Source: an uncultured bacterium (lineage in GTDB: Bacteria > Verrucomicrobiota > Lentisphaeria > Victivallales > UBA1829). From it: a DNA stretch of 59,032 nucleotides. A program made the translations under genes and the position numbers. How positions within the stretch are numbered: the stretch's first letter is position 1; each line of letters begins with the position of its first letter. The stretch spans positions 1 to 59,032 of the forward strand of contig CASFTV010000024.1 of the NCBI GenBank assembly GCA_949297765.1, read 5' to 3'. Below, piece after piece: positions 19,062 to 58,138 of the stretch. Under the pieces are notes generated by a model that was not told the DNA's origin, made no database searches, and worked only from the letters and a program-made list of their open reading frames with translations.

Positions 19062-19080
19062 GGATGGAGAGAAGAGAACC

Positions 19081-20439: not shown

Positions 20440-20453
20440 CCAGGGGTGAAATT

Positions 20454-21719: not shown

Positions 21720-21755
21720 CATTAGAATAAACCGTATTTGGAGAAGAGAACGATT

Positions 21756-24263: not shown

Positions 24264-24301
24264 TCACGATGAAAGAATATATGAACCATTTGGAGGATCC
24301 C

Positions 24302-28245: not shown

Positions 28246-29361
28246 ATGTTGCATGGAAAATTGATTTTTCATCCGGGAGAGGAATATCAGGTAGGGAAAC
28301 GTTTCTGGCAGGGGTGTCCGACCATTCAGCGGACTCTCCGGGGAACCCTGTTCGCCGGCTGGTATTCCGGCGGATTCGGAGAACCTTCGCTCAGCAATTA
28401 CAATCTTCTGGTCCGGAGCCGCGACGGAGGGCTTTCCTGGAGCGATCCGCTGCTGGTCATTGAAAGCCTTCGGGAAGAGGCCACGATTGCGATTGATATC
28501 CAGCTCTGGATGGATCCTTTGAACCGGATGTGGCTCTTCTGGACCCAGCGGCATCTCCGCATCCCGGCCGCGGAACCGGGACACCTGGAGCTCTGGGCGA
28601 TGGTCTGCGATGACCCTGACGCTGAAACCCTCCATTGGAGCGAACCCCGTTTCATCACTCCCGGATTTCTCCGCTGCCGTCCGACCGTCCTTTCCGACGG
28701 CCGCTGGCTCTGCTGCGCGTATGACTGGCTCGGAAACCGCTATCACTATTCCGAGTCCCGGGACAACGGAAACACATGGATCCGAAAAGAAGCCGGAGAA
28801 AAAATGCCGACCGATTTCGATGAATCCATGATCCTGGAACGGACCGACGGCTCTCTCTGGATGCTCGCCCGCTGCTTTGCCGGAGTTCTTGCGGAATCGA
28901 TCTCCACGGACGGCGGAGAACACTGGTCGCCCGGTGCCCCGACCCGGATTCCTTCTCCGTTCTCCCGCTTTTTCCTGCGCAGACTCCAGTCGGGACGTGT
29001 CCTGCTGATTAAGAACGATCATCCCAAGTCCCGCATTCAGATGACCGCTCTCCTCTCGGAAGATGACGGAAGGTCCTGGAAGTATTCCATGGTCGTCGAT
29101 CCGCGGGAAACCTCTTATCCGGACGCGGTCGAAGGGCCGGACGGAACCATTTACATGATTCACGACCGGGGAAGAACAACCTTCCGCGAAATCCTCTGCT
29201 CCCGCTTTACCGAGGAAGATATCATCGCGGGGCATCTCGTCAACTTCGATTCCTATGTCTGCCAGATCATCAGCAAGGCTCCCGCCGTCCCGTGGGATGC
29301 CGCTGTCGCAAAAGCCGCGGCGGAAGACGATTCGAAGATGCGGAAAGCCTATTTCTCGTGA
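28246..29361 (+). CDS. BNR/Asp-box repeat protein of the sialidase superfamily
   Basis: This 371-residue protein is predicted to be a six-bladed beta-propeller. Asp-box motifs (S-x-D-x-G-x-x-W) occur four times: SRDGGLSW, SRDNGNTW, STDGGEHW and SEDDGRSW. A sialidase fold is clear, but the arginine triad of true sialidases cannot be confirmed, so a related glycoside hydrolase or lyase is equally possible. There is no signal peptide, which suggests a cytosolic substrate. GGGAGGAAG precedes the ATG. It is divergent from an AraC-type regulator and its 3' end overlaps the convergent BtuF-like gene by 13 bases. Confidence 0.8.
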   Translation: MLHGKLIFHPGEEYQVGKRFWQGCPTIQRTLRGTLFAGWYSGGFGEPSLSNYNLLVRSRDGGLSWSDPLLVIESLREEATIAIDIQLWMDPLNRMWLFWTQRHLRIPAAEPGHLELWAMVCDDPDAETLHWSEPRFITPGFLRCRPTVLSDGRWLCCAYDWLGNRYHYSESRDNGNTWIRKEAGEKMPTDFDESMILERTDGSLWMLARCFAGVLAESISTDGGEHWSPGAPTRIPSPFSRFFLRRLQSGRVLLIKNDHPKSRIQMTALLSEDDGRSWKYSMVVDPRETSYPDAVEGPDGTIYMIHDRGRTTFREILCSRFTEEDIIAGHLVNFDSYVCQIISKAPAVPWDAAVAKAAAEDDSKMRKAYFS

Positions 29362-30161
29362 CCGGTTCTGTTCCCTGACTGTCGGAAAAAATCATGCAGC
29401 TTCCGGACCGCTTCCATGGAACGCGGTCCGAGGCGGTAGAGCAGGGACGGGTCCAGACCTGTCAGGATCCGTCCCGAACGAAACGCGGAACACGAACGCA
29501 GAACGGATTCCGTTTCGTTCTCCCCTCCGCAGAAAACCACGATGTCCGGATCCCGCAGAAGAACCCATTCCGGCGAGACAATGAAATATCCTTTTTCTTC
29601 CTCTCCCGCAATGTTTTTCCCTCCCGCCAGTTCAATCAGCTCATGGAGAAAGGTCCGCTTTCCCGCGGTATAGAGCGGTGAGGACGAAATCATTACAAAC
29701 ACCTTCGGCGCCTGCGGAAGATCACTCCGGAAACGACGGATCTCTTCCCGGTTTTTCCGGATTTCCTGTTCCGCCCGCTCGCGTTTTCCGAGAAGTTCTC
29801 CCAGCGTGCGCAGCGCGGAATCATAATCCGAAAGGGAATTTGCCGGAATTTCCAGATATCGGATGCCCGCCCGCTCCAGAACGGCCCGGTCGTTCGGCGA
29901 ACGGACCGCCGCCGTGACGACAACCGTCGCTCCCGAAGCGATCAGCGCCTCCGGATCGGCTTTCCCGAAACGACCGACGACTGGAATTTTTCGAATTCCC
30001 GGCGGATAATCACAGGCCGAAGAACGTCCGCAGAGCGCACTCTCTCCCCCCAGCAGACAGATGATCTCCGTCAGATTGGGACTCAGCGATGCAATTCTCT
30101 CCTCCGCGGACAGAAGAAGCATGGAGAAGAAAAGAAGCGCCGCACCGGCTCTGATCCGCAT
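29349..30161 (-). CDS. Periplasmic binding protein, BtuF-like
   Basis: This 270-residue protein has a signal peptide (RAGAALLFFSMLLLSA-EE) and the two-lobed fold of ABC-transporter class III binding proteins. Typical motifs are RIASLSPNLTEIICLLGG and VVGRFGKADPEALIASGATVVV, with a connecting helix around 115-145. BtuF (vitamin B12) is the closest type I recognise, but iron-chelate binding is possible. No permease or ATPase gene adjoins it, and it ends an operon led by an ECF sigma factor. A second, riboswitch-linked member of the family lies at 40855-41832. Confidence 0.8.
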   Translation of the reverse strand: MRIRAGAALLFFSMLLLSAEERIASLSPNLTEIICLLGGESALCGRSSACDYPPGIRKIPVVGRFGKADPEALIASGATVVVTAAVRSPNDRAVLERAGIRYLEIPANSLSDYDSALRTLGELLGKRERAEQEIRKNREEIRRFRSDLPQAPKVFVMISSSPLYTAGKRTFLHELIELAGGKNIAGEEEKGYFIVSPEWVLLRDPDIVVFCGGENETESVLRSCSAFRSGRILTGLDPSLLYRLGPRSMEAVRKLHDFFRQSGNRTGHEK

Positions 30162-40403: not shown

Positions 40404-40439
40404 TGCGTGTTCCTTTTTTTGTGTCATGCGCACAATTCA

Positions 40440-40556
40440 GAAATCGGCGTTTCTGAAAAACAGTCCATCGCCGGAGGATCTGACTTTGCCGCGGATGCGG
40501 CTCACAGTTGCGCGACAGTTCCCGATTTTCACAGGATTCACTCGCAGGCGATGCCG
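40440..40556 (-). promoter_or_regulatory. Cobalamin riboswitch upstream of the prepilin-like gene
   Basis: On the minus strand the core contains the B12-box-like CTGTCGCGCAACTGTGA inside a 26-base block at 40502-40527 that is identical to the plus-strand riboswitch at 40736-40761. GTGAATCC (40534-40541) precedes it and AAGTCAGATCCT (40475-40486) follows, in the same order. Downstream, an 8-bp hairpin TTCAGAAA/TTTCTGAA (40436-40457) without a T-tract suggests translational control. Confidence 0.85.
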
Positions 40557-40561
40557 CTGAA

Positions 40562-40589
40562 ACTATATCATCAATTTCCGGAAAAGCAA
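40562..40589 (-). promoter_or_regulatory. Promoter of the prepilin-like gene
   Basis: On the minus strand TTGCTT (40584-40589) and TATAGT (40562-40567) are 16 bases apart, directly before the riboswitch. Confidence 0.55.
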
Positions 40590-40666
40590 ATGGAATTCTT
40601 TCCCCGGACGGCTTCCCGAAGCGGGTTTTCTGTTCCAGAAGAGGGAGGGGAAAAGATATTTTTCCC

Positions 40667-40695
40667 TTGATTTTCATCACGGGTGATGTTATATT
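40667..40695 (+). promoter_or_regulatory. Promoter of the cobalamin operon
   Basis: TTGATT (40667-40672) and TATATT (40690-40695) are 17 bases apart, and the riboswitch begins immediately downstream. Confidence 0.7.
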
Positions 40696-40696
40696 A

Positions 40697-40830
40697 GCGG
40701 ACGATGATCGTCCGCATGGAAGTGAATCCCGTTGGAATCGGGAACTGTCGCGCAACTGTGAACCGGGCAGCCGGAAGTCAGATCCTTCGTGCGGATCGGA
40801 ATTGTTTCGGGAAATCGCGTTTCCCGTTTT
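40697..40830 (+). promoter_or_regulatory. Cobalamin riboswitch of the btu-cbi-cob operon
   Basis: A perfect hairpin GCGGACGA/TCGTCCGC opens the leader. The core GTGAATCC, CCCGTTGGAATCGGG, then CTGTCGCGCAACTGTGA, and AAGTCAGATCCT (40775-40786) match the conserved order of cobalamin riboswitches. The distal hairpin CGGGAAA/TTTCCCG followed by TTTT (40808-40830) looks like a terminator-type expression platform. Control of corrinoid uptake and synthesis genes directly downstream supports the call. Confidence 0.92.
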
Positions 40831-40854
40831 GTGCGCGCAACACAAGGATGGAAC

Positions 40855-41832
40855 ATGAAAGACACATCTGCTTCCGCATCGCCGGCTGGAGGGATTCTTC
40901 CGGGAAGATTGCTCCTGGGTGGGTTGGCCGGCCTGATCTGTGCCGTTCTGCCGCTCTCCGCGGAAATTGTCCGGGAGGACGGCTCTTCTCTGCAATATCG
41001 CCAGACGGACGGGGAGATGGTCTCCCTTTCGAAACGCCCGCGCCGGACGGTGATCGGATACGGATCTCTTGCCGGGGTCTGGCATCTCGCCGGAGGAACG
41101 GCGGTCGGAGTTCCGGAGCTCCGGAAAAAGAGCGCTCTGCCGGAAGAGATGCGCAATCTTCCCGTGGTCGGTTCCCCGACCGTGCCGAATGTGGAAAAAA
41201 TCGTCGCAATGAAGCCGGATCTGGTTCTTCTGACCGCAAAACTGGAACGTCACCGGTCGACGGCGGCTCTTCTGCGGAAATCCGGTATTCCCGCACTCTG
41301 TGTGAACTATGGGAATTATGACGGCTTCCGCGAAACACTGGATCTCTTCCGGCGGATCAATGGGGGATCCGCCGCCCGCGCATCCGAAGCGGAACAGGTG
41401 ATCGGGGAGGTTCGGCGGATCTGTGCGGCGGCCGCAAAGGAAAAAGCGCCGCGCTGTGCGATCGTGCTCACCGCATCCGCCGGTTTTACGCTGGAGTCTC
41501 CGCGGACGAACACCGGATGCATGGCGGCCCTGCTTGGCGCGGAGAATGTCCGGAAAACGGACTTTCCGTTGCGGGTGCGTTACAGTTATGAGCAGCTCCT
41601 GCTGGACAATCCCGATGTGATTCTGGTCATTCCCATGGGGGAGTCGGAGGACCTGAGAAGAAAATTCCGCCGGGAGTTCATGGAGCATTCCGCATGGAAC
41701 GAGCTTTCCGCGGCAAAAAGCGGACGGGTTCATTTTCTTCCGGTGGATCTGTTCCTGTACATGCCCGGCCCGCGCTATCCGGAGGCTTTCCGGCACCTGG
41801 CAAGTCTGCTGTATCCGGGAAAGGAGTTCTGA
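40855..41832 (+). CDS. btuF: Corrinoid ABC transporter binding protein, BtuF-like
   Basis: This 325-residue class III periplasmic binding protein has an N-terminal membrane-targeting segment (about residues 15-36, LLLGGLAGLICAVLPLSA). Typical motifs are RPRRTVIGYGSLAGVWHLAGG, NLPVVGSPTVPNVEKIVAMKPDLVLL and a long connecting helix. The riboswitch and the following cobalamin genes point to cobalamin or cobinamide as the ligand. The sequence alone would also allow heme or siderophores. ATG 40855 follows AAGGATGG. It is the first gene of the operon. Confidence 0.85.
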   Translation: MKDTSASASPAGGILPGRLLLGGLAGLICAVLPLSAEIVREDGSSLQYRQTDGEMVSLSKRPRRTVIGYGSLAGVWHLAGGTAVGVPELRKKSALPEEMRNLPVVGSPTVPNVEKIVAMKPDLVLLTAKLERHRSTAALLRKSGIPALCVNYGNYDGFRETLDLFRRINGGSAARASEAEQVIGEVRRICAAAAKEKAPRCAIVLTASAGFTLESPRTNTGCMAALLGAENVRKTDFPLRVRYSYEQLLLDNPDVILVIPMGESEDLRRKFRREFMEHSAWNELSAAKSGRVHFLPVDLFLYMPGPRYPEAFRHLASLLYPGKEF

Positions 41833-42843
41833 ATGGCGGAGGAGAAAACGGGATTGAGGAGTGTCCGGGGCAGAACGGCGGTTCTTCTTCTGCTGGCTCT
41901 GCTTCTTGCATGTGCGGTTCTGGCGAGCCTTTCGGTCGGTGCGCTGAAACTTCCGCCGATGGAGATCGTCGCCACGCTCTGGAACCGTCCGGAGGGGGTG
42001 GCATATCAGATTCTGTTCAATATCCGGCTTCCGCGGATTCTGCTCGGGGCTCTGGTCGGGGGATGTTTTGCCGTTTCCGGAGCGATTCTTCAGGGGGTGA
42101 TGCGCAATCCTCTGGCGTCGCCGGGGATTATCGGCGTGTCGGCGGGAGGGGGGCTTGCGGGAATTCTGGTGATGCTGGCGTTTCCCCGTTTCGGCGCGCT
42201 GCTGGTGCCGGCGGCCTTCTGCGGCGCGATGGTGACGGCGGTGGCGGTGTACCTGCTCGCATGGAAGCGGGGAGTGAGTCCGGTGCGTCTGATCCTGGCG
42301 GGCGTGGCGGTGTCGTCGATGCTCGGTGCGTTCAGCAGCGCGGTGCTGCTGTTCAATGCGGAACGGGCGGGGGGAATCCTTGATTTCACGATCGGATCGC
42401 TTTCGGCGCGCAGCTGGGGACAGATCGAACAGGTCGCCGGGTATATGCTGTTTGCGTTTCTCTGCGCGTTTCTGCTCGGAGGAAAACTGAATATTCTGGC
42501 GCTGGGGGACGAGGTGGCGGTCGGACTTGGTCTCCGGGTGGAGCGGGTCCGGTTTCTGCTGATCGGAACGGCGGCGCTGCTGGCGGCGTCGGCGGTCAGC
42601 GTCGCGGGGCTTCTCGGGTTCGTCGGGCTGATCGCGCCCCATATCGTGCGGATGGTGATCGGAGCCGACAACCGTTTTCTTCTTCCGGCATCCGCGCTGT
42701 TCGGCGCGTTTCTGGTGGTCAGCTGCGACACGGTCGGGCGCATCGTGATGGAACCTTCCGAACTTCCGGTCGGCATCATCATGGCATTGCTGGGGCCGCC
42801 ATTCTTTCTCTGGCTGCTGAGGAGACACCATTATGAACGTTGA
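41833..42843 (+). CDS. btuC: Corrinoid ABC transporter permease, BtuC/FecCD type
   Basis: This 336-residue polytopic membrane protein of the FecCD family has about ten helices. Family motifs are visible: RLPRILLGALVGGCFAVSGAILQGVMRNPLASPGIIGVSAGGGL and GLLGFVGLIAPHIVRMVIGADNR near the C-terminus. Its ATG directly follows the stop of the binding protein. With the neighbouring genes it forms a BtuCDF-like importer. Confidence 0.92.
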   Translation: MAEEKTGLRSVRGRTAVLLLLALLLACAVLASLSVGALKLPPMEIVATLWNRPEGVAYQILFNIRLPRILLGALVGGCFAVSGAILQGVMRNPLASPGIIGVSAGGGLAGILVMLAFPRFGALLVPAAFCGAMVTAVAVYLLAWKRGVSPVRLILAGVAVSSMLGAFSSAVLLFNAERAGGILDFTIGSLSARSWGQIEQVAGYMLFAFLCAFLLGGKLNILALGDEVAVGLGLRVERVRFLLIGTAALLAASAVSVAGLLGFVGLIAPHIVRMVIGADNRFLLPASALFGAFLVVSCDTVGRIVMEPSELPVGIIMALLGPPFFLWLLRRHHYER

Positions 42844-43627
42844 AGTCCGGAACCTCCGCGCCGGATACGGCGCAAAACTGGTGCTCGACGGCGTGGATGC
42901 GGAGATCCTCGAACACGGCGTGGTCACGCTGCTGGGCCCGAACGGAAGCGGGAAATCCACACTTCTGAAGACGATCGGACGCATCCTGACGCCCCGGTCC
43001 GGGGAGATTCTGCTTTCGGGCCGTTCGCTTTCCGCATGGAAGACCGGCGAGCTTGCCCGCCGGATGGCGATTCTGCCTCAGCTTCATCACACGTCCGGAG
43101 AGCTGACGGTGGAAGAGCTGGTCGCTTTCGGACGTTTTCCGCATCGCGGTCTGCATCCGCTTCCCGGCGCGCGCGATCGCGAGATGATCGAACGCGCTCT
43201 CTCCATGACCCGCATGACGGAATTCCGCCGGCGCAGTATGAACACCCTTTCCGGCGGAGAACGGCAGCGGGCGTGGATCGCCATGACTCTCGCACAGGAA
43301 CCGGAGCTGCTTCTGCTGGACGAGCCGACGACGTTCCTTGACATCCGATGCCAGTTCGAAATCATTGAACTGATCCGGGAGCTGAACCGGAATGCGGGGA
43401 TCACCGTGCTGATGATTCTTCACGATCTGAATTCAGCTCTCCGCTGTTCGGACCGGCTGATTATGCTGCGCGACCGGAAAGTCCGCTATGCGGGAACGCC
43501 GGAGGAGCTGATGAAGCCGGAGATCCTGCGCGAAATTTTTGAAATCGAGGCGGAGTTTTTCCGGGGAAAGGACGGTCGGCTCGGCTGTCTTCCGGTCGCC
43601 CCGGCGGGAAGAAAGGAGAACGGATGA
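42833..43627 (+). CDS. btuD: Corrinoid ABC transporter ATPase, BtuD/FecE type
   Basis: This 264-residue ATPase has Walker A GPNGSGKST (residues 35-43), signature LSGGERQRAWIAMTLAQEP, Walker B LLLDEPTTFLD and the switch His in ILHDLN. It overlaps the permease by 11 bases and the flavodoxin-CbiK gene by 4 bases. Confidence 0.92.
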   Translation: MNVEVRNLRAGYGAKLVLDGVDAEILEHGVVTLLGPNGSGKSTLLKTIGRILTPRSGEILLSGRSLSAWKTGELARRMAILPQLHHTSGELTVEELVAFGRFPHRGLHPLPGARDREMIERALSMTRMTEFRRRSMNTLSGGERQRAWIAMTLAQEPELLLLDEPTTFLDIRCQFEIIELIRELNRNAGITVLMILHDLNSALRCSDRLIMLRDRKVRYAGTPEELMKPEILREIFEIEAEFFRGKDGRLGCLPVAPAGRKENG

Positions 43628-44901
43628 AAATTCTGATTGTTTACGCAAGCCGGAAGACCGGTAATTCCCGGAAGATCGCGGAGGCGCTCCGGAAGGGGAT
43701 TCCCTGCGATTCTCAGCTTGTATCCGCTGCGGATGCGCCGTCGCCGGAAAGATTCGATCTGCTTGTGCTCTGCTTCGGAATTTACTGCGGCTGGCCGGAC
43801 GGCGATATGATGGCGTTCATGCGACGCTGCCGCGGAAAAGAGGTGGCGCTGTTTGTGACGCTCGGAGCGTGGCCGGATTCGGAACATGCGTTCCGCTGCG
43901 TCGGCCGGGCGGAGGGACTGATGGAATCGTGCGATGTCCGCCTCCGCTTTCTCTGTCAGGGCGGCTACACGGAGGAGTTCCTTGCGCGGATGAAATCCAT
44001 TCCGCCTTCCGCACCGCATGGATGGACGGCGGAACGTGAAATGCGGGTCATGGAGGCGATGAAGCATCCGTCGTCCGCCGACTGTGCGAATGCGGTCGCC
44101 GCCCTCCGTTCCCGGCTGGAGGAAATGGAAATGGAAAAGACGGTTCCGGCGGACCGCCCGGAAAAAAAGGCGGTGGTCCTTTCCGTGTTCGGAACGACCG
44201 TTCCCGGAGCGGAAAAGGCGTATGATCTGCTGGAGAAGTCGATTCGTTCCCGCTGCGGACATCCGGTGTTCCGTGCATATACGTCGCCGCGGGTGCGCCG
44301 CCGGCTGGGGGGACGGGTTCCTTCGCTGACGGGAGTGCTGAAACATCTGGTCGAAGAGGAGTTCACGGAGGCGGAGGTGGTGGCTGCATACCTCGCGGAC
44401 GGGGAGGAGTATGAGAAGGTGGTGCGCGATCTTTCGGCGTTCCGGAGATCGCTGAGGATTCATGTGAACCGTCCGCCGCTGTCCACGCTTGCGTCGCTGT
44501 CGGACTTTCTTCCGCTGCTGCCGTCGACGGTTCCTCCGGAGCGGTTGCCCGGGGAACCGGTGATTTTTGCCGGACACGGACATGCGGACGGGCGGTCGGA
44601 TTTTCAGTATTTTGCGCTGGATGCCGGTTTGAAGCGTCTGGACAGCGTATTTTTTGCCGCGTGTGTGGAGGGGGCGCCGGGACTGGACTCTGTCTTGCCG
44701 CGCCTGACCGGAAAACGGGTCTGGCTTCTTCCGTTCCTGATGGTGGCGGGGGAGCATGCCTGCCGGGATCTGGCCGGAGAGGGCGAGGAGTCCTGGCGGT
44801 CGCTTCTTGCCGCGCGCGGATTCGAGGTGAAAACGGTTCTCCGGGGACTGGGAGAATTTCCATCCGTCGCAGACTATTTTACGGAGGGAGTGATGCAATG
44901 A
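43624..44901 (+). CDS. cbiK: Flavodoxin-CbiK fusion: sirohydrochlorin cobaltochelatase
   Basis: This 425-residue two-domain protein starts with a flavodoxin-like domain (residues 1-150; FMN phosphate loop YASRKTGNSRK at 7-17, then CFGIYCGWPDGDM). The CbiK cobaltochelatase occupies about 180-420, with the metal-binding histidines in FAGHGHADGRSDF and MVAGEHACRDLAGEGEESW. CbiK inserts cobalt into sirohydrochlorin at the start of the anaerobic route. CbiK is normally a stand-alone protein of about 260 residues. The flavodoxin part could deliver electrons, for example for cobalt or ring reduction, but this is conjecture. Both ends overlap the neighbouring genes by 4 bases. Confidence 0.88.
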   Translation: MKILIVYASRKTGNSRKIAEALRKGIPCDSQLVSAADAPSPERFDLLVLCFGIYCGWPDGDMMAFMRRCRGKEVALFVTLGAWPDSEHAFRCVGRAEGLMESCDVRLRFLCQGGYTEEFLARMKSIPPSAPHGWTAEREMRVMEAMKHPSSADCANAVAALRSRLEEMEMEKTVPADRPEKKAVVLSVFGTTVPGAEKAYDLLEKSIRSRCGHPVFRAYTSPRVRRRLGGRVPSLTGVLKHLVEEEFTEAEVVAAYLADGEEYEKVVRDLSAFRRSLRIHVNRPPLSTLASLSDFLPLLPSTVPPERLPGEPVIFAGHGHADGRSDFQYFALDAGLKRLDSVFFAACVEGAPGLDSVLPRLTGKRVWLLPFLMVAGEHACRDLAGEGEESWRSLLAARGFEVKTVLRGLGEFPSVADYFTEGVMQ

Positions 44902-45614
44902 GTTCGGGAAAATTCTATGGAGTCGGACTCGGTCCCGGCGATCCGGGACTGGTGACGCGGAAAGCGGAAGAGATCCTGCGTTCGGTTCAGGTGGTCTATA
45001 CGGCGGCGTCGCGGCAGAGTGCGCGGAGCGTTTCGGGGGCGATTCTGGATGCGCTTCCCGGCGTGACCGCCCGCCGCGTGGAACTGAAATTCACAATGGC
45101 ATCCGATTTCCCGACCCGTCTTGCCAAAATTGACGAACATGCCGAATCCATCGCCCGGGAACTCCGTTCAGGGAACGACTGCGCGTTCGGGACGATCAGC
45201 GATCCGATGACCTACAGCACCTGCGGCTATCTTCTCCGCGCCCTGCGCCGGATTCTGCCGGATCTGCGGTTTGAGATTGTTCCCGGAGTGAACTCTTGGA
45301 GTGCGCTTGCTGCGGCTTCCGCGTCGCCTCTGGTGGAGGACAACGGGATTCTGCGAGTGGTGCCGAGCTATCTTCCGCCTGATTCGCCGGAGCTTTCCGC
45401 CATGCTGGAGGAGGAGGGTGCGATGGTGCTGTTGAAGACCTATCACACCCGCAACGCATATCTGGACCGTCTCGCGGGGGAACCGTGCGATATCCTGTAC
45501 GGAGCGAACATCGGACTGGACAACGAGTTTATTTCCGACGATCCGGAAGCTGTCCGCGCCCGTCCCGACGAATACCTTTCCATGCTGATGATCCGGAAAG
45601 GGAGGCGCTCATGA
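44898..45614 (+). CDS. cbiL: Cobalt-precorrin-2 C20-methyltransferase
   Basis: This 238-residue SAM-dependent methyltransferase of the tetrapyrrole methylase fold adds the C20 methyl group. The N-terminal motif FYGVGLGPGDPGLVTRKAEEIL and the second motif IVPGVNSWSALAAAS are characteristic, and the AASRQSARS segment fits CbiL/CobI. The ATG overlaps the cbiK stop (ATGA) and its own stop overlaps the next start. Confidence 0.93.
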   Translation: MSSGKFYGVGLGPGDPGLVTRKAEEILRSVQVVYTAASRQSARSVSGAILDALPGVTARRVELKFTMASDFPTRLAKIDEHAESIARELRSGNDCAFGTISDPMTYSTCGYLLRALRRILPDLRFEIVPGVNSWSALAAASASPLVEDNGILRVVPSYLPPDSPELSAMLEEEGAMVLLKTYHTRNAYLDRLAGEPCDILYGANIGLDNEFISDDPEAVRARPDEYLSMLMIRKGRRS

Positions 45615-48157
45615 TACGGCACGGCGGAAACCGGATGGAATTTGCCCGCCTTGCGGGATGTGCACCGGAGGAGATTCTGGATTTCAGCGTGAATCTCAAT
45701 CCGCTCGGGATGACGGAGTGTGCCGAGGCGGCGTACTTCCGTTCAGCGGAGCGCCTGTCGGAATATCCGGAGCCGTATTCGGAGCGGCTCTGCGGGATCG
45801 CGGCAGAGATTTGGAAGGTTGATCCGAAGACGATTCTGTTCGGCAACGGATCCAACCAGCTTCTTTCGCTGATCCCGCGGGTCCTGAAGCCGCGTTGCGC
45901 GCGGATTGTGGTTCCCGGCTATCTGGAATACCGGAACGTGTGCGAACGGGCGGGCATTCCGGTTACTCCGTTTTTCCTGAATGGTGCGTTTGAACTGGAT
46001 TTTGAAGCCTTGTCCGCCGCGTCCGCTCCGGGGGATCTGGTGATCCTCGGGAATCCGAACAACCCGGACGGAGGACTCTGCGATCCGGAGAAGATCCGCA
46101 GCTTTGCAGAGAGTAGATCGGATCTTCAAATTCTTGTGGACGAAGCATTTATAGAATTTGCCGGAGAAGAGTTCTCTCTTCTTTCGCGTCCGATGCCGCC
46201 GAATCTTTCTCTTCTCCGGTCCATGACCAAGTTTTATGCGGTTCCGGGCCTTCGCATCGGGTACTGGGTCGGTGCGGCGGTTGCGGAAGCCCGCGCGTTT
46301 CAGGAGGAGTGGATGCTGTCCGCTCCGGCGGAGGCGGTTGCGGAGGCGCTGCTTCTGGATCGGAGCGATTTTGCGGAACGCTCCCGCATCCGGACCGCGG
46401 AGCTTCTGGAACATCTTGCGGATTCTCTGTGCCGGATTCCCGGACTCCGGCTCTTTCCTTCCCGGGCCTGCTATCTTCTGGTGGAGGGCGAACGGAATCC
46501 GGCGGAAGTTCTGCTGAAGAAATATCGCATTGCCGTACGCTCCTGCGGCAATTATGAAGGGCTGAACGATCGTTTTTTCCGGGTTGCGGTGCGGGAGGAA
46601 AAGGAAAATGAACGGCTGGTTGCGGCGCTCCGGGAGATTTTCGGAGGCGGACCGTCGATTGTTCTTCCCCGGCGGAAACCGGCACTGATGCTGCAGGGAA
46701 CGGCATCGAATGCGGGAAAAAGCGTTCTGACTGCGGCATTCTGCCGGATTTTTCTTCAGGATGGTTTCCGTGTGGCTCCGTTCAAAGCGCAGAATATGGC
46801 GCTGAATTCCTATGTGACGCTCGACGGCGGAGAAATGGGACGGGCGCAGGTGGTTCAGGCCCAGGCGTGCCGGCTGGAACCGGATGTCCGGATGAATCCG
46901 ATTCTTCTGAAGCCCACCGGCGATACCGGCAGTCAGGTCATTCTCCGGGGGAGGCCGGTCGGCGTGATGCGGGTCCGGGAGTATTATGCGCGGAAAAAAA
47001 CGTTCTGGTCCGACGTAACATGTTCTTATGACGAACTTTGTGAGCAGGCGGATGTGATGGTCCTTGAAGGCGCCGGTTCTCCGGGTGAAGTGAATCTCAA
47101 GTCCGGCGACATCGTCAATATGGCGATGGCCCGCTATGCGGAAGCCGCGGTTCTTCTGGCCGGAGATATTGATCGGGGAGGGGTCTATGCGTCGTTTCTG
47201 GGGACCTGGATGACGCTCACAGCGGCGGAACGCTCTCTGGTGCTGGGATTTCTTGTAAACAAGTTCCGCGGGGATTCCTCCCTTCTGGCTCCCGCACACG
47301 AATACCTGCGGAAGCGGACCGGAAAGGAGGTCCTCGGTGTGGTGGATTATCTCCCGCGTCTGAATCTTCCGGAAGAGGACTCCGTCAACTTTCTGCAGGG
47401 CCGTCCTCTTCCCAAGCTGGAGAAGACGCTGGATGTGGCCCTGATTGCGCTCGGACACATTGCCAATTTCACGGATTTTGATCCTCTGGAGCGGGAGCCG
47501 GATGTCTCCTTGCGGAAGGTGTTCCGTCCGGAGGAACTTGGAACTCCGGATGTGATCATTATGCCGGGATCGAAGAATGTTCCGGTGGACTTGCGGCGTC
47601 TGCGGGAGGAGGGGATGGAACGGGTTCTCCGGGAGGAACTGGATCGCGGTGCGTGGTATGTCGGCGTCTGCGGCGGACTTCAGATCGCGGGACGCTCCAT
47701 CGCCGATCCGTGCGGACTTGAATCCGCGCCCGGCTCCGTCGAGGGGCTTGGCCTGCTTCCGCTGGAAACGGTTCTGAAGCCGGAGAAGACCCTTCGGCGC
47801 ACGACCGGCCGTGAAACCGGCGGACTCCCGGTTTCCGGATATGAAATCCATCACGGCGAAACCTCCGCCGACTCCGATGCGGTCGTGACGCAGGTCCGCG
47901 ATGACGGAACCCCGGTCGGTTTCGGCTCCGGACGGATTTTCACAACCTATCTGCATGGGATTTTTGACGACGATCGTTACCGCCGGGCGTTTCTCGACCG
48001 CATCCGTCTCTCCCGCGGACTTCCCGCGATCGGGAAAATTCTGGTCCGCTGCGATACGGAGCGTGTCCTTGACGAACTCGCCGACCACGTCCGTTCCCGG
48101 GTGGATATGAAACAGATCTATGCCCGTCTGGGGTTGAAGAAGGGAGGAAAATCATGA
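45611..48157 (+). CDS. cobD-cobQ: CobD-CobQ fusion: threonine-phosphate decarboxylase and cobyric acid synthase
   Basis: This 848-residue protein joins two pathway enzymes. Residues 1-350 are a PLP-dependent class I/II aminotransferase-fold domain like CobD (DFSVNLNPLG near 23, LILGNPNNPDG near 152, PLP-lysine in SMTKFYAVPGLRIGYW), which makes aminopropanol phosphate from threonine phosphate. Residues 358-848 are CobQ/CbiP (LMLQGTASNAGKSVLTAAFCRIF, FKAQNMALNSYVT, DIDRGGVYASFLGT, and the amidotransferase cysteine in GVCGGLQIAG), which amidates four side chains. CobD supplies the linker that CbiB attaches to the CobQ product. ATG 45611 overlaps the cbiL stop. Confidence 0.93.
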   Translation: MIRHGGNRMEFARLAGCAPEEILDFSVNLNPLGMTECAEAAYFRSAERLSEYPEPYSERLCGIAAEIWKVDPKTILFGNGSNQLLSLIPRVLKPRCARIVVPGYLEYRNVCERAGIPVTPFFLNGAFELDFEALSAASAPGDLVILGNPNNPDGGLCDPEKIRSFAESRSDLQILVDEAFIEFAGEEFSLLSRPMPPNLSLLRSMTKFYAVPGLRIGYWVGAAVAEARAFQEEWMLSAPAEAVAEALLLDRSDFAERSRIRTAELLEHLADSLCRIPGLRLFPSRACYLLVEGERNPAEVLLKKYRIAVRSCGNYEGLNDRFFRVAVREEKENERLVAALREIFGGGPSIVLPRRKPALMLQGTASNAGKSVLTAAFCRIFLQDGFRVAPFKAQNMALNSYVTLDGGEMGRAQVVQAQACRLEPDVRMNPILLKPTGDTGSQVILRGRPVGVMRVREYYARKKTFWSDVTCSYDELCEQADVMVLEGAGSPGEVNLKSGDIVNMAMARYAEAAVLLAGDIDRGGVYASFLGTWMTLTAAERSLVLGFLVNKFRGDSSLLAPAHEYLRKRTGKEVLGVVDYLPRLNLPEEDSVNFLQGRPLPKLEKTLDVALIALGHIANFTDFDPLEREPDVSLRKVFRPEELGTPDVIIMPGSKNVPVDLRRLREEGMERVLREELDRGAWYVGVCGGLQIAGRSIADPCGLESAPGSVEGLGLLPLETVLKPEKTLRRTTGRETGGLPVSGYEIHHGETSADSDAVVTQVRDDGTPVGFGSGRIFTTYLHGIFDDDRYRRAFLDRIRLSRGLPAIGKILVRCDTERVLDELADHVRSRVDMKQIYARLGLKKGGKS

Positions 48158-48831
48158 ATTCCGGATCCCATTTTCTGTTCGAGCGGATCACATGGAACCT
48201 TCCGGGAAGCGCCATTGAACGCGAAAGTTTCCGGCGGATCGAAGCGGAAATCCCGCCGGAGGTGCGGAACCGTTTTTCCGAATCGGAATGGCGGATTGCG
48301 CGCCGTCTGATTCATACAACAGCGGATTTTTCGATTGCGGAACATCTGCGTTTTTCTGGCGACCCGGTGTCCGCCGGCCGGACTGCCCTGTGCGCCGGCG
48401 CCCGGATCTATTCGGACTCCAATATGATTAAAGCGGGACTTTCCGTGCCGAAACTGAAACGGTTCCACGCTTCCTATTCCCGGGAGTCGATTCTCTGCGA
48501 TGTCGCTTCTCCGGAAGTTGCGGAACTTGCTGCGCGAAAAGGAATTACAAGAGCTCTTGCGGCGGTGGAACTGCATGAGCGCGATCTTGACGGATGTATT
48601 TTCCTCTGCGGCAATGCACCGCTTGCACTTGCGGGGATGATCCGGCTGATTGTAGAAAACCGGGTGCATCCGGCATTGATTGTAGGAATGCCGGTCGGAT
48701 TTGTAAATGTGTTGGAATCCAAAGAGTTGCTTCATCTTGTTGATATTCCGTATGTGACTTTGGAAGGTCGTCGCGGAGGAAGTCCGCTGGCGGTGGCGAC
48801 TCTGCATGCGATCATGGAGGAGAGGGAATGA
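48154..48831 (+). CDS. cbiC: Cobalt-precorrin-8 methylmutase
   Basis: This 225-residue enzyme moves the C11 methyl group to C12, giving cobyrinate. The catalytic histidine lies in RRLIHTTADFS (near residue 50), followed by the family segments IYSDSNMIKAGL and GMPVGFVNVLESKE. It overlaps its neighbours on both sides by 4 bases. Confidence 0.95.
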   Translation: MNSGSHFLFERITWNLPGSAIERESFRRIEAEIPPEVRNRFSESEWRIARRLIHTTADFSIAEHLRFSGDPVSAGRTALCAGARIYSDSNMIKAGLSVPKLKRFHASYSRESILCDVASPEVAELAARKGITRALAAVELHERDLDGCIFLCGNAPLALAGMIRLIVENRVHPALIVGMPVGFVNVLESKELLHLVDIPYVTLEGRRGGSPLAVATLHAIMEERE

Positions 48832-49877
48832 ATCCGGAACTTCGCAGCGGCTTTACGACCGGAGCGGCAATGACCGCCGGGGCGCTTGCCGTTTTTCTCC
48901 GTCGGAGCGGGGAGGTCGAGCTGATTCTTCCCGGTGCGGATCGTATCCGTGTTCCGGTCGAGAGCCGGACGGAAGAGTCGGCGGTGATCCGGAAAGATGC
49001 CGGAGATGATCCCGATGCAACCCATGGTGCGCATATTGAAGTGCTTTTCCGGAAGGCGGACGCGTCGGAGCTTCTGCCGGAGGATTATCTGGAGTCGGCA
49101 GGAGAACTGACGGTGATTGTTCGCGGCGGGGAGGGAGTCGGAATGGTGACGCGCTCCGGTCTGGCGGTTCCTCCCGGAAAATCCGCGATCAATCCTGGAC
49201 CGCGCAAACTGTTGATGGACAACCTGTTGCGTCTCGGGGTCTCCGGGATATGGCTGCTGCGCGTTTCCGTCCGTGAGGGTGCGGCGATGGCGGATCAGAC
49301 GCTGAATCCGGTGCTTGGAATTCGCGGAGGAATTTCGATTCTGGGAGGCGGCGGAATCGTCCGTCCCTGTTCGAATGCCGCATATGCCGCAACGATTTTC
49401 CTGCAGATCCGGATGGCCGCCCGGGAGGGGGCCGATACCATTGCTCTGGTCACCGGAAGACGGACCGAGCAGGCTGTCCGCCGCGATTTCCCCGCTCTTC
49501 AAGAGCTGCAGATCGTGCGGATCGCCGATTTTATCGCCCACTCCCTCCGATGTGCAGATCACTTTGGAATTCAACATGTTATTGTTGGATGTATGCCGGG
49601 AAAACTGATGAAATACGCCAGCGGCGATGAAAATACCCATGCACACCGGACTCCTCTGCGTCCCGCCATGCTCCGCGAAATGGGCATCGGCGTCCGGATC
49701 GGTTCGGAACTGGAAACAATCCATACAATGGGGGAACTGGCGGACCGTCTTTCCCCGGCGGAATACGGGACCGTGCTGGAACGATTGAAACCTTTGGCGC
49801 TGAAGTATTTGAAAAAATGGGGCGGGACATGCCAGGTGGAACTTGCCCTTTATGGAGAACAGGGAGAACGGAGATGA
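48828..49877 (+). CDS. cbiD: Cobalt-precorrin-5B C1-methyltransferase
   Basis: This 349-residue protein has the CbiD N-terminal signature LRSGFTTGAAMTAGALAVFL and the segments GEGVGMVTRSGL and NPVLGIRGGISILGGGGIVRP. It methylates C1 after ring contraction and is specific to the anaerobic, cobalt-early route, in agreement with cbiK. Start and stop overlap the neighbouring genes. Confidence 0.95.
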   Translation: MNPELRSGFTTGAAMTAGALAVFLRRSGEVELILPGADRIRVPVESRTEESAVIRKDAGDDPDATHGAHIEVLFRKADASELLPEDYLESAGELTVIVRGGEGVGMVTRSGLAVPPGKSAINPGPRKLLMDNLLRLGVSGIWLLRVSVREGAAMADQTLNPVLGIRGGISILGGGGIVRPCSNAAYAATIFLQIRMAAREGADTIALVTGRRTEQAVRRDFPALQELQIVRIADFIAHSLRCADHFGIQHVIVGCMPGKLMKYASGDENTHAHRTPLRPAMLREMGIGVRIGSELETIHTMGELADRLSPAEYGTVLERLKPLALKYLKKWGGTCQVELALYGEQGERR

Positions 49878-51049
49878 ATACAGCATGGAGGATCCGGGTT
49901 GTCAGCATGGAAAATCCCCCGGGAGAACTGCTTTCCTCCGCCGATGTGATTGCCGGAGGGAGACGGCAGCTGGAACTCCTTCCGGAAGGCCTTTCGGCGG
50001 AACGGGTGATCCTCGGCGCGTCTGCGGTGGAACAGGCGCGGGAACTGATCCGGAGGGCGGAGACGGAAACGGTGGTTGTGCTCGCTTCCGGTGATCCTCT
50101 CTATTGCGGGATCGGAGGAACAATTGCAAAACTTGTGGAGCCAGAACATCTTGAGATTCAACCGGGTATAACAGCGTTTCAACATCTGTTCGCCCGTCTT
50201 GGACGGCCATGGGAGACGGCGGCTCTGTTCAGCGTGCATGGAAGCGACACCCCGCTTCCGTGGCGGAGGATCCTGAATGCAGGGACCTCTGTGGTCTACG
50301 GAGACTCCCGGCGTACGGCTTCGGATCTCGCCGGAGAGCTGATCGCCTGCTTTCCGGAGTCCTCAGGTCGTTCCGCATCCATCGGCTGCGATCTTGGAAC
50401 TCCGGAGGAGCGCATCCTTTGCGGAACTCTTGCCCGGCTCGCTCGGGAAAAGGTCCCGCCGCTTTCGGTGCTTGCGGTTTTTCCGGAAGGCGGACTTCGT
50501 CCCGGCCTTCCTCTGGGGCTGCCCGATTCGGAATATGCGCACAGCGCCAGAATGATTACCCATCCGGAGGTGCGGGCGGTGGTGCTTGCGAAACTGCGGG
50601 CGGTGTCCGGAGTGATGTGGGATCTCGGTGCGGGAAGCGGATCCGTCGGGCTGGAGGCCGCCGGACTCGCTCCGGAACTGACGGTCTATGCAGTCGAAAA
50701 GAATCCCGGAAGAGCTGCCGATCTTCGAAGCAACGCCGCCCGTCACGGGATTCCGCTGAAGGTGATGGAGGGAGAAATCGCCTCGCTCCTTTCCGCTCTT
50801 CCGGATCCGGACCGGGTGTTTTTCGGGGGGGGGGCGTCGGAGCTGGAGGAGGTCTTTGCGCGTCTCCGGCCGGGAGGAATTCTGGTCGCGACGGCGGTGC
50901 TTGTTGAAACTGCCGTCCGTCTGGGCCGGGCTCTTCCGGAGTTCCGGACAGAGCTGCTGACGCTGAACGTTTCGCGCGCATGTTCCACGTCCGCCGGAGA
51001 GTTCTGGCGGGCGGAAAATCCAATCACGCTGGCCGTGTTTCAAAAATAA
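49874..51049 (+). CDS. cbiET: CbiE-CbiT fusion: precorrin-6Y C5,15-methyltransferase (decarboxylating)
   Basis: This 391-residue protein is the CobL-type fusion. Residues 1-200 are a tetrapyrrole methylase of the CbiE type (VLASGDPLYCGIGGTI, IQPGITAFQHLFARLG). Residues 220-391 are a class I Rossmann methyltransferase of the CbiT type (ITHPEVRAVVLAKL, MWDLGAGSGSVGLEAAGL). Together they methylate C5 and C15 and decarboxylate ring C. A run of ten G lies at 50825-50834 inside the CbiT part (codons of FGGGAS). Confidence 0.94.
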   Translation: MNTAWRIRVVSMENPPGELLSSADVIAGGRRQLELLPEGLSAERVILGASAVEQARELIRRAETETVVVLASGDPLYCGIGGTIAKLVEPEHLEIQPGITAFQHLFARLGRPWETAALFSVHGSDTPLPWRRILNAGTSVVYGDSRRTASDLAGELIACFPESSGRSASIGCDLGTPEERILCGTLARLAREKVPPLSVLAVFPEGGLRPGLPLGLPDSEYAHSARMITHPEVRAVVLAKLRAVSGVMWDLGAGSGSVGLEAAGLAPELTVYAVEKNPGRAADLRSNAARHGIPLKVMEGEIASLLSALPDPDRVFFGGGASELEEVFARLRPGGILVATAVLVETAVRLGRALPEFRTELLTLNVSRACSTSAGEFWRAENPITLAVFQK

Positions 51050-51058
51050 GGAGAGCAA

Positions 51059-52876
51059 ATGTCCGGTTCAATTACTTTTGTCGGCGCCGGTCCGGGCGCG
51101 GCGGACCTGATTACGATCCGCGGGAAAAGAAAAATCGACTCCGCCGATGTGATTGTCTATGCCGGTTCGCTGGTCGATGAACGGCTGATGGACGGTTCGC
51201 GCGCGGAAAAATACAACAGCGCTTCGCTGAACTTCGAGGAAATCCTCGAAATCCTGGTGCGCTCCTGGCGGGAAGGAAAGCAGGTTGTGCGTCTGCATAC
51301 GGGTGATCCGGCCATGTACGGAGCCGTCGGTGAACAGTATCGTGCGCTGGATGCGCTCGGAATCCCTTATGAGGTGATTCCGGGTGTCAGCAGCGTGTTT
51401 GCCGCGGCGGCCGCGCTGAAGGTTGAATTCACGATGCCCGGAGTTTCCCAGACGGCGATTCTGACCCGGGACTCCGGTCGGACGCCCGTTCCCGAAAAGG
51501 AGAATCTGGAAAGTCTGGCGGCACACGGATCAACTCTCTGCCTGTTCCTCAGTGCGGGAGATCCGGAAGGGGTTGTCCGGAAAGTGCTTGCATCCGGACG
51601 TCCCCCGGAAACACCGGCCGCCGTGGTCTACCGGGCCGGATGGGAGAATCAGAAGATCGTCCGCGGGACCCTTGCCGATCTCGTGGAACGGGTTCGGGAA
51701 GCCGGAATCCGGCGGCAGGCGATGATCGTCATCGGCGATGTGCTGGAGCGTCCCGGTGAGATGTCGTCGCTTTACGACCGGAATTTCGAACATGGGTACC
51801 GGAGAAGAAAACAGTTTCCCGGACACTCTGCCATCTTTGCCCTGACCTCTGCCGGGGTTCTGAAAGCCGCCGAGATTGCGGCAGGAATTGATGCTCCGGT
51901 GTTTGTCGCCGAGAAATATCGGCATCTGGTGGCATCCGACCGGGTCGTGCCGTATCCGGACGGCGGATTCCGCGAGGCCTTCCGCTCCGCCTGGAACAAT
52001 TACGACGGATTCGTCATGGTGATGGCGGCCGGTATTGTGACGCGCGAGTGTGCGGAGCTCTGCCGGAAGAAGACAACCGATCCGGCGGTGGTGGTCGCGG
52101 ATGAGCTGGGACGCCATGTCATCAGTCTGCTTGGCGGACATCTTGGCGGAGCAAACCGTCTCGCGGAGGATGTCGCTTCCGTGACCGGCGGAGAAGCGGT
52201 CCTCACCACCGCAAGCGATTTGCAGGGAATGCTCGCCGTGGACGAATTCGCTGCACGGAACGCCATGCGGGTCCTGAATCCGGAAACGATCGTCCGAATC
52301 TCTTCCGCGGCTCTGGAGGGACGCCGGATTGATTTTGTCCTCCCGGAATCCCTCTTCCGGTCTTTTTATTCCAAAGTCCCGAATTTTCATCGGGTTGCAG
52401 CGCCGGGAGAGAACCCGGCCGTGGTCCTTCTGGAGTCCGGAGAGACGGTTCCCGCTCTCCATTCCGGGGAGACGGTTCTGTATCTGAAGCGGCGTCGGTT
52501 TGTCCTGGGGATCGGATGCCGGAAAAATGCCTCTCCGGAGGATCTGGAGCAGACGGTTTCCTCCGTCCTTGAACATGCCGGCGGAAGCTGGGAAAATGTC
52601 GTGCGGATCGCCACGGCGGATCTGAAACTGGAGGAACGCGCTCTTCGCGATCTCGCCGCCCGGCACGGAGTCCGGCTGACGGGGTATTCCGCGGAGGAGC
52701 TGAATGCCGTTTCCGTTCCGCATCCCTCGGAGGCCGCCTGGAAGTCTCTCGGGATTCATTCGGTCTCGGAGGCCGCGGCGCTTCTCGCCTCCGGATCCCG
52801 GAAACTGCTGATCGAAAAAACAAAAGGCAACGGCGTGACCGTCGCTCTCGCAGAGGAAAAGGAGAACGATCAATGA
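51059..52876 (+). CDS. cbiFG: CbiF-CbiG fusion: precorrin-4 C11-methyltransferase and cobalt-precorrin-5A hydrolase
   Basis: This 605-residue fusion carries two consecutive steps. Residues 1-250 are CbiF/CobM (ITFVGAGPGAADLITIRGKRKI, VVRLHTGDPAMYGAVGEQ, VIPGVSSVFAAAA). Residues 255-605 are CbiG (FVMVMAAGIVTRECA, HVISLLGGHLGGANRLAEDVA, and a C-terminal domain starting near FVLGIGCRKN), which opens the lactone and releases acetaldehyde. Separate proteins of about 250 and 350 residues are the common form. It starts 9 bases after cbiET with AAGGAGAG as ribosome site, the largest gap within the block of cobalamin synthesis genes. Confidence 0.94.
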   Translation: MSGSITFVGAGPGAADLITIRGKRKIDSADVIVYAGSLVDERLMDGSRAEKYNSASLNFEEILEILVRSWREGKQVVRLHTGDPAMYGAVGEQYRALDALGIPYEVIPGVSSVFAAAAALKVEFTMPGVSQTAILTRDSGRTPVPEKENLESLAAHGSTLCLFLSAGDPEGVVRKVLASGRPPETPAAVVYRAGWENQKIVRGTLADLVERVREAGIRRQAMIVIGDVLERPGEMSSLYDRNFEHGYRRRKQFPGHSAIFALTSAGVLKAAEIAAGIDAPVFVAEKYRHLVASDRVVPYPDGGFREAFRSAWNNYDGFVMVMAAGIVTRECAELCRKKTTDPAVVVADELGRHVISLLGGHLGGANRLAEDVASVTGGEAVLTTASDLQGMLAVDEFAARNAMRVLNPETIVRISSAALEGRRIDFVLPESLFRSFYSKVPNFHRVAAPGENPAVVLLESGETVPALHSGETVLYLKRRRFVLGIGCRKNASPEDLEQTVSSVLEHAGGSWENVVRIATADLKLEERALRDLAARHGVRLTGYSAEELNAVSVPHPSEAAWKSLGIHSVSEAAALLASGSRKLLIEKTKGNGVTVALAEEKENDQ

Positions 52877-53634
52877 AATCCGCAACCATCTATGCGGTCG
52901 GTCTCGGACCCGGCTCCTCCGCGCTGATGACGCCGCAGGCCCGGGAGGTCCTGGAACGCTGTACGACAATCGCAGGATACCGGACCTATCTGGATCAGAT
53001 CCCGGAACTCCTTGAAGGAAAACAGATCATCTGCTCCGGAATGCGGCAGGAGACGGAACGCTGCCGGGCGGCTCTGGAGGCCGCGCGGAAAGGAGAATCC
53101 GTCGCGGTCGTCTCCTCCGGAGATGCCGGAATCTACGGGATGGCGGGGCTGCTGCTCGAACTCCTCGAATCAGGACGGTATCCCGGAATAGAAGTTGCGG
53201 TGGTTCCGGGGATCACCGCGGCTTCCGCGGCGGCCGCACGGGTCGGCGCACCTCTGATGTGCGATTTCTGCGTAATCAGTCTTTCCGATCTGCTTGCGGA
53301 CGGGGAGACCATCCGCAGGCGCGTGCGTTGCGCGGCGGAAAACGATTTCGTGACCGTTCTTTACAATCCCGGCAGTTCAAAACGGAGAGAACTTCTGGAG
53401 TTCACCGTCGGGACGTTCCGCAGGGCGGGAGGAGAGTCCCTGCCGGTTGCCGTGGTTCACAATGCGTTTCGTTCCGGCGAACGCTTCTCCATCTGCACCA
53501 TCGCGGAGTTCCCGTTCGCGGAAATTGATATGACAACCATTCTCATCATCGGTTCCTCCTCCACCGTGGTGCGGAACGGACGGATGTACACCCTGCGGGG
53601 ATATCGGGAGAAATATGACGGATTCCAACACTGA
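52873..53634 (+). CDS. cbiH: Cobalt-precorrin-3 C17-methyltransferase
   Basis: This 253-residue tetrapyrrole methylase carries out C17 methylation with ring contraction. CbiH/CobJ motifs are IYAVGLGPGSSALMTPQAREVL, VAVVSSGDAGIYGMAGLLLE, VVPGITAASAAAARVGAPL and VTVLYNPGSSKR. It overlaps cbiFG by 4 bases and cbiA by 20 bases. Confidence 0.95.
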   Translation: MKSATIYAVGLGPGSSALMTPQAREVLERCTTIAGYRTYLDQIPELLEGKQIICSGMRQETERCRAALEAARKGESVAVVSSGDAGIYGMAGLLLELLESGRYPGIEVAVVPGITAASAAAARVGAPLMCDFCVISLSDLLADGETIRRRVRCAAENDFVTVLYNPGSSKRRELLEFTVGTFRRAGGESLPVAVVHNAFRSGERFSICTIAEFPFAEIDMTTILIIGSSSTVVRNGRMYTLRGYREKYDGFQH

Positions 53635-55935: not shown

Positions 55936-56549
55936 AACGATTGATTTTGATTCGTCACGGAGAGCTTCCTCCGGAGTTTGCGGGACGGTTTGTCGGCAGG
56001 ACCGATGCGCCGCTCGGAGAACAGGGAATCGCCGACTGCCGCGCGCTTGCCGGAATCTGGCGGAACATGAACAGCGAGGTTGTGTTTGTCAGTCCGAAGC
56101 TGCGGGCCAGACAGACGGCGGAACTGATCTGCGGCGAGGGAAATTTCCTTCTGGACAACCGTCTCCGTGAGGTCGATTTCGGCCGCTGGGAAAATCTGAA
56201 TTTCGAGGAGATCGCCGGCCGCGATCCCGAATACAGCAAATACTGGTACGATCATCCGCAGGAGATCCGTTTTCCGGAAGGGGAGGCGGTTCCGGAGTTC
56301 TATGCGCGGGTGGAACAGTTCACGGAGATGTTGCTGAAGGAGTCGCGGAAGGTGATGACGGTGATCTCCCACGGAGGCGTTCTGACGGTGATGATCCGCC
56401 GTCTGATGGATCTTCCGCACGAGGCCATGTGGCGCTGGCAGCCGTCGCGGGGAAGTCTTTCCGTCATCCAGTTTGATCCGTCCGCTCTTCCGGGACGGTT
56501 CGGAGTGTTCAATTTAAAACCCGGGGAGCTGACAGGATGGCAAAGGTAA
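55926..56549 (+). CDS. cobC: Alpha-ribazole phosphatase-like histidine phosphatase
   Basis: This 207-residue histidine phosphatase carries the RHG motif (LIRHGELPPEFAGRFVGRTDAPL) and the second catalytic His in VISHGGVLTVM. The position between cbiB and cobU supports dephosphorylation of alpha-ribazole phosphate or of the cobalamin phosphate. It overlaps cbiB by 10 bases and cobU by 13 bases. Confidence 0.9.
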   Translation: MDLKRLILIRHGELPPEFAGRFVGRTDAPLGEQGIADCRALAGIWRNMNSEVVFVSPKLRARQTAELICGEGNFLLDNRLREVDFGRWENLNFEEIAGRDPEYSKYWYDHPQEIRFPEGEAVPEFYARVEQFTEMLLKESRKVMTVISHGGVLTVMIRRLMDLPHEAMWRWQPSRGSLSVIQFDPSALPGRFGVFNLKPGELTGWQR

Positions 56550-58137: not shown

Positions 58138-58138
58138 A

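Follow-up and report, generated by a model that had tools for sequence, protein, structure and literature searches.

We analysed a 59,032-nucleotide stretch of DNA from an uncultured bacterium of the Victivallales (hereafter, the window) and found that a gene for a prepilin-type exported protein is led by a cobalamin riboswitch. Across the class, such a prepilin takes the place of the TonB/BtuB receptor gene in genomes without TonB receptors. The evidence observed comprises the homology of the riboswitch, its position before a prepilin gene throughout the order, the almost complete lack of TonB receptors there and the exchange with BtuB. We judge it probable that the protein is a B12-repressed, pilin-like surface factor that stands in for BtuB by taking corrinoids through the outer membrane or enabling this step. 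Genomes, loci, genera and families are labelled G, L, g and f, respectively, and G000 is the genome of the window.

Two cobalamin riboswitch leaders in the window

The window was searched with cmscan at the Rfam gathering cut-offs and also with an E-value threshold. No cobalamin riboswitch was found in the window at the gathering cut-offs (gathering score 50), while the E-value threshold revealed two matches to the AdoCbl riboswitch RF01482 in a head-to-head orientation, both of which scored below the gathering score (Table 1). No RF01482 matches beyond these two were found at E<=1 across the 4.2-Mb genome. A weak third match, to RF00174 (G000:C40, E 0.036), was dropped; it was absent with RF01482 and with the clade model R1 described below. 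The minus and plus riboswitches share an identical 26-nt core, AATCGGGAACTGTCGCGCAACTGTGA, of which a 22-nt part occurs exactly twice, with no occurrence expected in shuffles. The first-pass annotation had described two riboswitches with an identical 26-base core in opposite orientations and had proposed a covariance-model check of the minus strand; RF01482 was indeed found on both strands, and the minus-strand match was the better of the two.

Single-sequence folding of either leader gave no signal above shuffles (z -0.62 and +0.18), and the case for the riboswitches therefore rests on homology. In the consensus fold from 27 homologous family leaders, 18 of the 30 pairs were changed on both sides, and 91% of the cells in the alignment were paired, compared with 74% when it was shuffled and 32-46% when it was slid. 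The conserved aptamer fold is backed by strong covariation among these 27 relatives. Both window leaders end in the same second hairpin (UUGUGCGC...ACACAA), which abuts the Shine-Dalgarno sequence, and they are therefore homologous past the aptamer. This terminal hairpin is kept in relatives, with 98% of its cells paired. As the hairpin abuts the Shine-Dalgarno sequence and the start codon, control by both leaders is probably translational.

The claim that each riboswitch has its own promoter held for the plus leader, the only one with a scan-supported promoter. Upstream of the minus riboswitch, only a weak TATAGT-like -10 was present; the relatives carry TATA(T/G)T at the same place.

Table 1. 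Coordinates of the riboswitch leaders and genes at the window locus.
Feature	Position	Strand	Evidence or remark
RF01482 (AdoCbl) riboswitch aptamer, leads prepilin gene	40433-40568	-	cmscan 38.8 bits, E 1.3e-5
RF01482 (AdoCbl) riboswitch aptamer, leads B12 operon	40696-40829	+	cmscan 33.6 bits, E 2.1e-4
R1 clade-model match, minus leader	40420-40559	-	104.7 bits; training sequence of R1
R1 clade-model match, plus leader	40704-40844	+	97.6 bits; training sequence of R1
Terminal hairpin TTGTGCGCATGACACAA, just before Shine-Dalgarno	40419-40435	-	Likely expression platform
Shine-Dalgarno AAGGAA of prepilin gene	about 40410-40415	-	Sequence
Terminal hairpin TTGTGCGCGCAACACAA, abuts AAGGATGG before btuF start	40829-40845	+	Homologous to minus hairpin
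Sigma-70-like promoter TTGATT-17-TATATT, extended TG, for plus riboswitch	40667-40695	+	Consensus scan, 9/12
Prepilin-type exported protein, 292 aa	39525-40403, ATG at 40403	-	TIGR02532 20.6 bits, cut-off 16.3
btuF-type periplasmic corrinoid-binding protein	40855-41832	+	PF01497 E 1.7e-20; BtuF model NF002894 E 4e-7, below cut-off
btuC-type permease (FecCD)	41833-42843	+	PF01032 E 2.4e-91
btuD-type ATPase	42833-43627	+	PF00005 E 5.8e-31
Cobalamin synthesis genes: flavodoxin-cbiK, cbiL-like, cobD-cobQ fusion, then rest of pathway to cobS	43624-58876	+	
cbiC, cbiD, cbiE/T, cbiF/G, cbiH, cbiA, cbiB, cobC, cobU, cobT, cobS		+	After cobD-cobQ; named by reading ORF translations

Genes behind the two leaders

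The plus leader heads btuFCD and the cobalamin synthesis genes, and the minus leader heads the prepilin gene, in agreement with the first-pass assignment of one riboswitch to a corrinoid uptake and synthesis operon and the other to a prepilin-type gene. Behind the minus leader, purF comes 158 bases beyond the prepilin gene. Among the synthesis genes, cbiK and cobD-cobQ were assigned by hmmscan, and the others were assigned by ORF translations with no profile search. The cobalt chelatase CbiK (43624-44901, plus strand) has a fused N-terminal flavodoxin domain (PF12641; BilS-like), and a further fusion at 45608-48157 (plus strand) joins CobD (threonine-phosphate decarboxylase) to CobQ (cobyric acid synthase).

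Elsewhere in the window, a second BtuF-like substrate-binding gene (29349-30161, minus strand; NF002894 E 2e-22) lies beside a sialidase-like gene, and no riboswitch was found at this second gene. At 17256-26962, at a distance of 13 kb from the B12 prepilin, lies a type II / type IV pilus-like locus, in which pilM/N/O-like genes, named by reading, precede a tandem pair of large secretin genes (21738-24263 and 24260-26962).

Recurrence of the riboswitch-prepilin pairing

RF01482 was present in 34 of the 36 genomes of the window's family. The first gene downstream of the 49 family loci encoded a prepilin in 33 cases, a large beta-helix surface protein (PMP and RTX repeats) in 15 cases, which belong to genera g6 and g10, and BtuF in a single case, which is the window's plus leader; the prepilin count includes G018 (motif FSLIELL). 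In the genera other than g6 and g10, btuF commonly follows the prepilin gene; it does so in at least 12 genomes, in which the B12 uptake operon thus begins with the prepilin. Riboswitch-prepilin-btuF is therefore a common arrangement; in the window genome, it is split into a divergent pair of units, and a riboswitch leads each of them.

We built a covariance model of the clade, R1, from leaders of the family, whose scores are consequently high by construction. The R1 leader was found in 127 of the 137 genomes of the order and in 182 of the 198 genomes of the class. Within the order but outside the family, the prepilin came first in 48 of the 67 fetched loci with room; L144, where the supposed prepilin was btuF, was removed. 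Overall, a cobalamin riboswitch lies directly before a prepilin gene in about 91 of the 198 genomes of the class (Lentisphaeria, judging by its named members), often with btuF next, although these genomes are related and the counts are not independent events. The survey for riboswitches upstream of prepilin genes that the first-pass annotation had proposed revealed the pairing well beyond the window, including in the cultured Victivallis vadensis DSM 14823 (G134), where the riboswitch lies at NZ_QEKH01000029.1:41852-41992 and the prepilin gene extends to 42825.

R1 leaders also occur before metE (L251, L256, L258), nrdD-like genes (L168, L172) and cobD (L131, L132), which are expected targets of cobalamin riboswitches. 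Together with btuF and btuB-like genes, the leaders are thus located before genes for B12 transport, B12 synthesis or B12-independent isozymes. In some genomes, btuF, cobD or nrdD comes immediately after the riboswitch, and in G168 this place is occupied by neither BtuB nor a prepilin.

Two further arrangements were observed among these loci. A HemN/HemW-like radical SAM gene often comes after the prepilin in the B12-controlled operon (L058, L059, L065, L135, L136), and such a gene also follows the prepilin in V. vadensis (NZ_QEKH01000029.1:42677-44119). In G122:C310, two cobalamin riboswitches stand in tandem at a spacing of about 1.2 kb; the one at 8203-8335 precedes a cbiK-like gene, and the one at 9475-9591 precedes a prepilin.

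Exchange of the prepilin with BtuB

The TonB plug domain (PF07715) was found in none of the 36 family genomes, and control genomes gave it as expected. It was present in 3 of the 137 order genomes (one marginal), as opposed to 41 of the 61 genomes in the rest of the class. No more than three prepilin genomes bear the plug, namely G081 (marginal), G122 and G137. Upon comparison of leader and plug coordinates, a TonB receptor gene was found directly behind the leader in 30 genomes; one such receptor was scanned, and the model that it fitted best was TIGR01779, for the B12 receptor, with an E-value of 1e-62 but a score under the model's cut-off.

Family f21 contains both states. The receptor stands behind the riboswitch in all 14 plug-positive genomes, whereas the prepilin stands there in 11 of the 12 plug-negative genomes, the twelfth having btuF. 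The split of receptor and prepilin by plug gave a p-value of 2e-7, although this and the p-value given below overstate independence, because the genomes are related and some are incomplete. The switches within single genera are a stronger point than the p-values: in g76, G176 has the receptor and G177-G179 have the prepilin, and in g73, G169 and G170 have the receptor and G171 has the prepilin. Where TonB receptors are lacking, the prepilin stands in the position of the TonB/BtuB gene.

The prepilin protein and its clade

The window prepilin contains the FTLIELL helix and an H-X9-DG motif, and it carries the N-terminal class III signal and hydrophobic helix of type IV pilins (TIGR02532 over cut-off). 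We compared the B12-linked prepilins with 51 sampled paralogs of the window genome and found that the B12-linked proteins cluster apart. In particular, the G of the GYGYN motif was present in 97% of the B12-linked proteins versus 7% of the paralogs, its second Tyr in 84% versus 3%, the F of the HFRH motif in 97% versus 21%, D173 in 100% versus 50%, and G252 in 100% versus 35%. The window protein has 10 of the 12 clade signature residues and the paralog par_L275_1 has 9, against a paralog mean of 2.8; this signature was chosen from the same sequences, and it therefore characterises the clade without testing it independently. In a quick tree, the window protein grouped with par_L275_1, and a single clade of B12-linked proteins was not rejected (p-AU 0.10). 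This paralog (L275:1633-2451, minus strand; G000:C8) has another gene context, and no riboswitch was found at it; judging from its residues, it is possibly a second corrinoid-related prepilin.

In each of two AlphaFold models (mean pLDDT 74 and 82), a long pilin helix was accompanied by a domain rich in beta structure, with the pilin-like N-helix of the window protein at 23-73. The top Foldseek match, and the only credible one in the PDB, was the gonococcal pilin 1ay2 (prob 0.99, E 0.17, 55 columns), which covered the helix only; the Foldseek searches with the two models revealed no relative of the C-terminal domain and no match that hinted at corrinoid binding.

The Gly before the cleavage site is missing in the window protein, which has Lys at -1, and was present in only 3 of the 79 B12-linked prepilins. 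Because this residue is mostly missing, cleavage and filament assembly are uncertain. Most of the sampled G000 prepilins likewise have no usual Gly before FTLIE, which raises a question about their processing. Components of the machinery were found: G000 has 2 matches to PF01478 (prepilin peptidase) and 7 to PF00263 (secretin), and each of the 36 family genomes has 7-15 secretins.

Alternative explanations for the pairing

The main alternative is that the pseudopilin helps a secretion machine to export another surface protein that binds or releases corrinoids, such as a PMP/RTX beta-helix protein, in which case its role in uptake would be indirect. In g6 and g10, cobalamin riboswitches lead genes for beta-helix proteins that carry Chlamydia PMP and RTX repeats, a beta-helix gene comes directly after the prepilin gene in L039 and L164, and secretins are abundant, all of which would suit such a role. 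However, most riboswitch-prepilin genomes show no such adjoining partner, and only two riboswitches were found in the window genome, and we therefore regard this explanation as unlikely, while taking it seriously.

In g6, g10 and some g43 genomes, a second cobalamin riboswitch precedes very large beta-helix proteins (L055:9067-12225, minus strand; L037, L008, L009, L011-L015, L018, L021, L026, L114, L123, L126). One of these proteins was scanned and contained Chlamydia PMP and RTX repeats. The very large beta-helix proteins are candidate B12-regulated surface proteins.

Adhesion is a common role of pilins, and the prepilin could instead build a filament or adhesin for times of B12 scarcity, by which cells might hold on to particles or to neighbours that make B12, with no role in transport. 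Regulation by B12 shortage would fit such foraging, but the operon order with btuF and the exchange with BtuB at one position fit transport better, which makes this explanation improbable.

The window genome has at least 150 prepilin-type loci, and because of this number, a prepilin beside a regulated operon is less special in G000 than in most bacteria. Some of the hundreds of prepilin genes would then fall behind any leader, and the pairing would have no B12 function. The TPP riboswitches of the window's family argue against such chance placement: none of the 30 was followed by a prepilin, and the genes behind them were of the thiamine type where recognised, as opposed to 33 prepilins at the 49 cobalamin loci (Fisher p 5e-10). 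The notion that prepilins follow any riboswitch was rejected on this basis. The abundance of prepilins is a non-negligible background, yet it leaves the contrast between cobalamin and TPP unexplained. Moreover, the pairing extends across many genera with a conserved protein clade, and this conservation largely refutes chance placement, to which we give very little weight. We find it least credible of all that decay of a duplicated riboswitch has left the minus-strand element unable to sense corrinoid, as both Rfam scores being below gathering might suggest, since this element keeps the core, the terminal hairpin and the Shine-Dalgarno spacing, outscores the plus element and matches its relatives.

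Proposed role in corrinoid uptake

The reading we prefer is that the prepilin acts in corrinoid uptake at the outer membrane in BtuB's place. The first-pass annotation had suggested that the pseudopilin may be a surface corrinoid-binding or uptake factor, and the comparative evidence (its recurrence, its absence behind TPP riboswitches and its exchange with BtuB) supports this well past the window itself. We infer in which direction B12 acts, that the protein lies at the surface and binds corrinoids, and that it takes part in transport, and these steps would be combined as follows. The minus riboswitch would sense corrinoid, and when corrinoid is plentiful, the terminal hairpin would fold against the Shine-Dalgarno sequence and shut off translation of the prepilin. 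Under corrinoid scarcity, the prepilin-like protein would be made, its N-terminal pilin helix would serve for insertion, and assembly or display at the cell surface would fall to a type IV pilus / type II secretion machine. There, it would capture corrinoids or allow their passage through the outer membrane towards BtuF and BtuCD, and it would thereby fill the place that BtuB holds in relatives that have TonB-dependent receptors. As a pilin is no channel, a pore would also be required, for which a secretin is a natural candidate.

Comparison with known systems

The window locus resembles the Gram-negative operons in which a cobalamin riboswitch controls btuB or btuFCD; the riboswitch is placed in the same clan (CL00101), with scores below gathering, the ABC importer is the same, and class relatives have the same leader before a TonB/BtuB gene. 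The difference is in the outer-membrane slot, which is held here by a prepilin-type protein, in genomes in which no TonB plug domain was found. Accessory surface proteins tied to B12 transport are also known from Bacteroides, where the lipoproteins BtuG, BtuH and DUF4465 belong to B12 transport loci, work with BtuB and are reported to capture B12 at the surface (PMC6143338, PMC10404256, PMC8941943). In contrast, the protein described here is of the pilin type, with no BtuB, and no sequence or fold match was found between the window prepilin and these lipoproteins.

The N-terminal FTLIELL helix and the H-X9-DG motif are shared with the H-X9-DG prepilin-like proteins of the PVC group, whereas the B12 clade has residues of its own (GYGYN, HFRH, D, G) and is tied by a riboswitch to one ligand. 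In Planctomycetes, a related phylum, pili-like fibres bind a nutrient, dextran, with uptake into the periplasm; that ligand is a polysaccharide and not a vitamin, and the fibre-forming protein is not named in the part of the report available (PMC5394234). In the open-access literature, we found nothing on a cobalamin riboswitch and a pilin in such a role, including in Lentisphaerae or Victivallis, and the expectation at first pass that a B12-controlled pseudopilin would be new is consistent with this result. The parts are of known kinds, and their combination and the replacement of BtuB appear to be new.

Implications

Ordinary porins are too narrow for cobalamin, and to our knowledge, every well-studied Gram-negative B12 route uses a TonB-dependent receptor. 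A group without TonB receptors therefore needs another route, for which the prepilin is a concrete candidate. A B12-controlled pilin-like protein in the receptor's position points to an undescribed outer-membrane B12 route in a large group of gut and environmental bacteria, and the finding is testable because the cultured V. vadensis DSM 14823 carries the pair. It is also, as far as we know, the first clue from regulation to a ligand of the prepilin-like proteins of the PVC group, a very large and uncharacterised family. More tentatively, and with somewhat less than even confidence, we suggest that the Victivallales and their relatives may take up corrinoids via a pilin-type surface apparatus in place of a TonB-dependent receptor, and that their hundreds of H-X9-DG prepilins may form a toolbox for nutrient-specific capture. 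If this is true, the B12 prepilin would be the first H-X9-DG member with a ligand named by a riboswitch.
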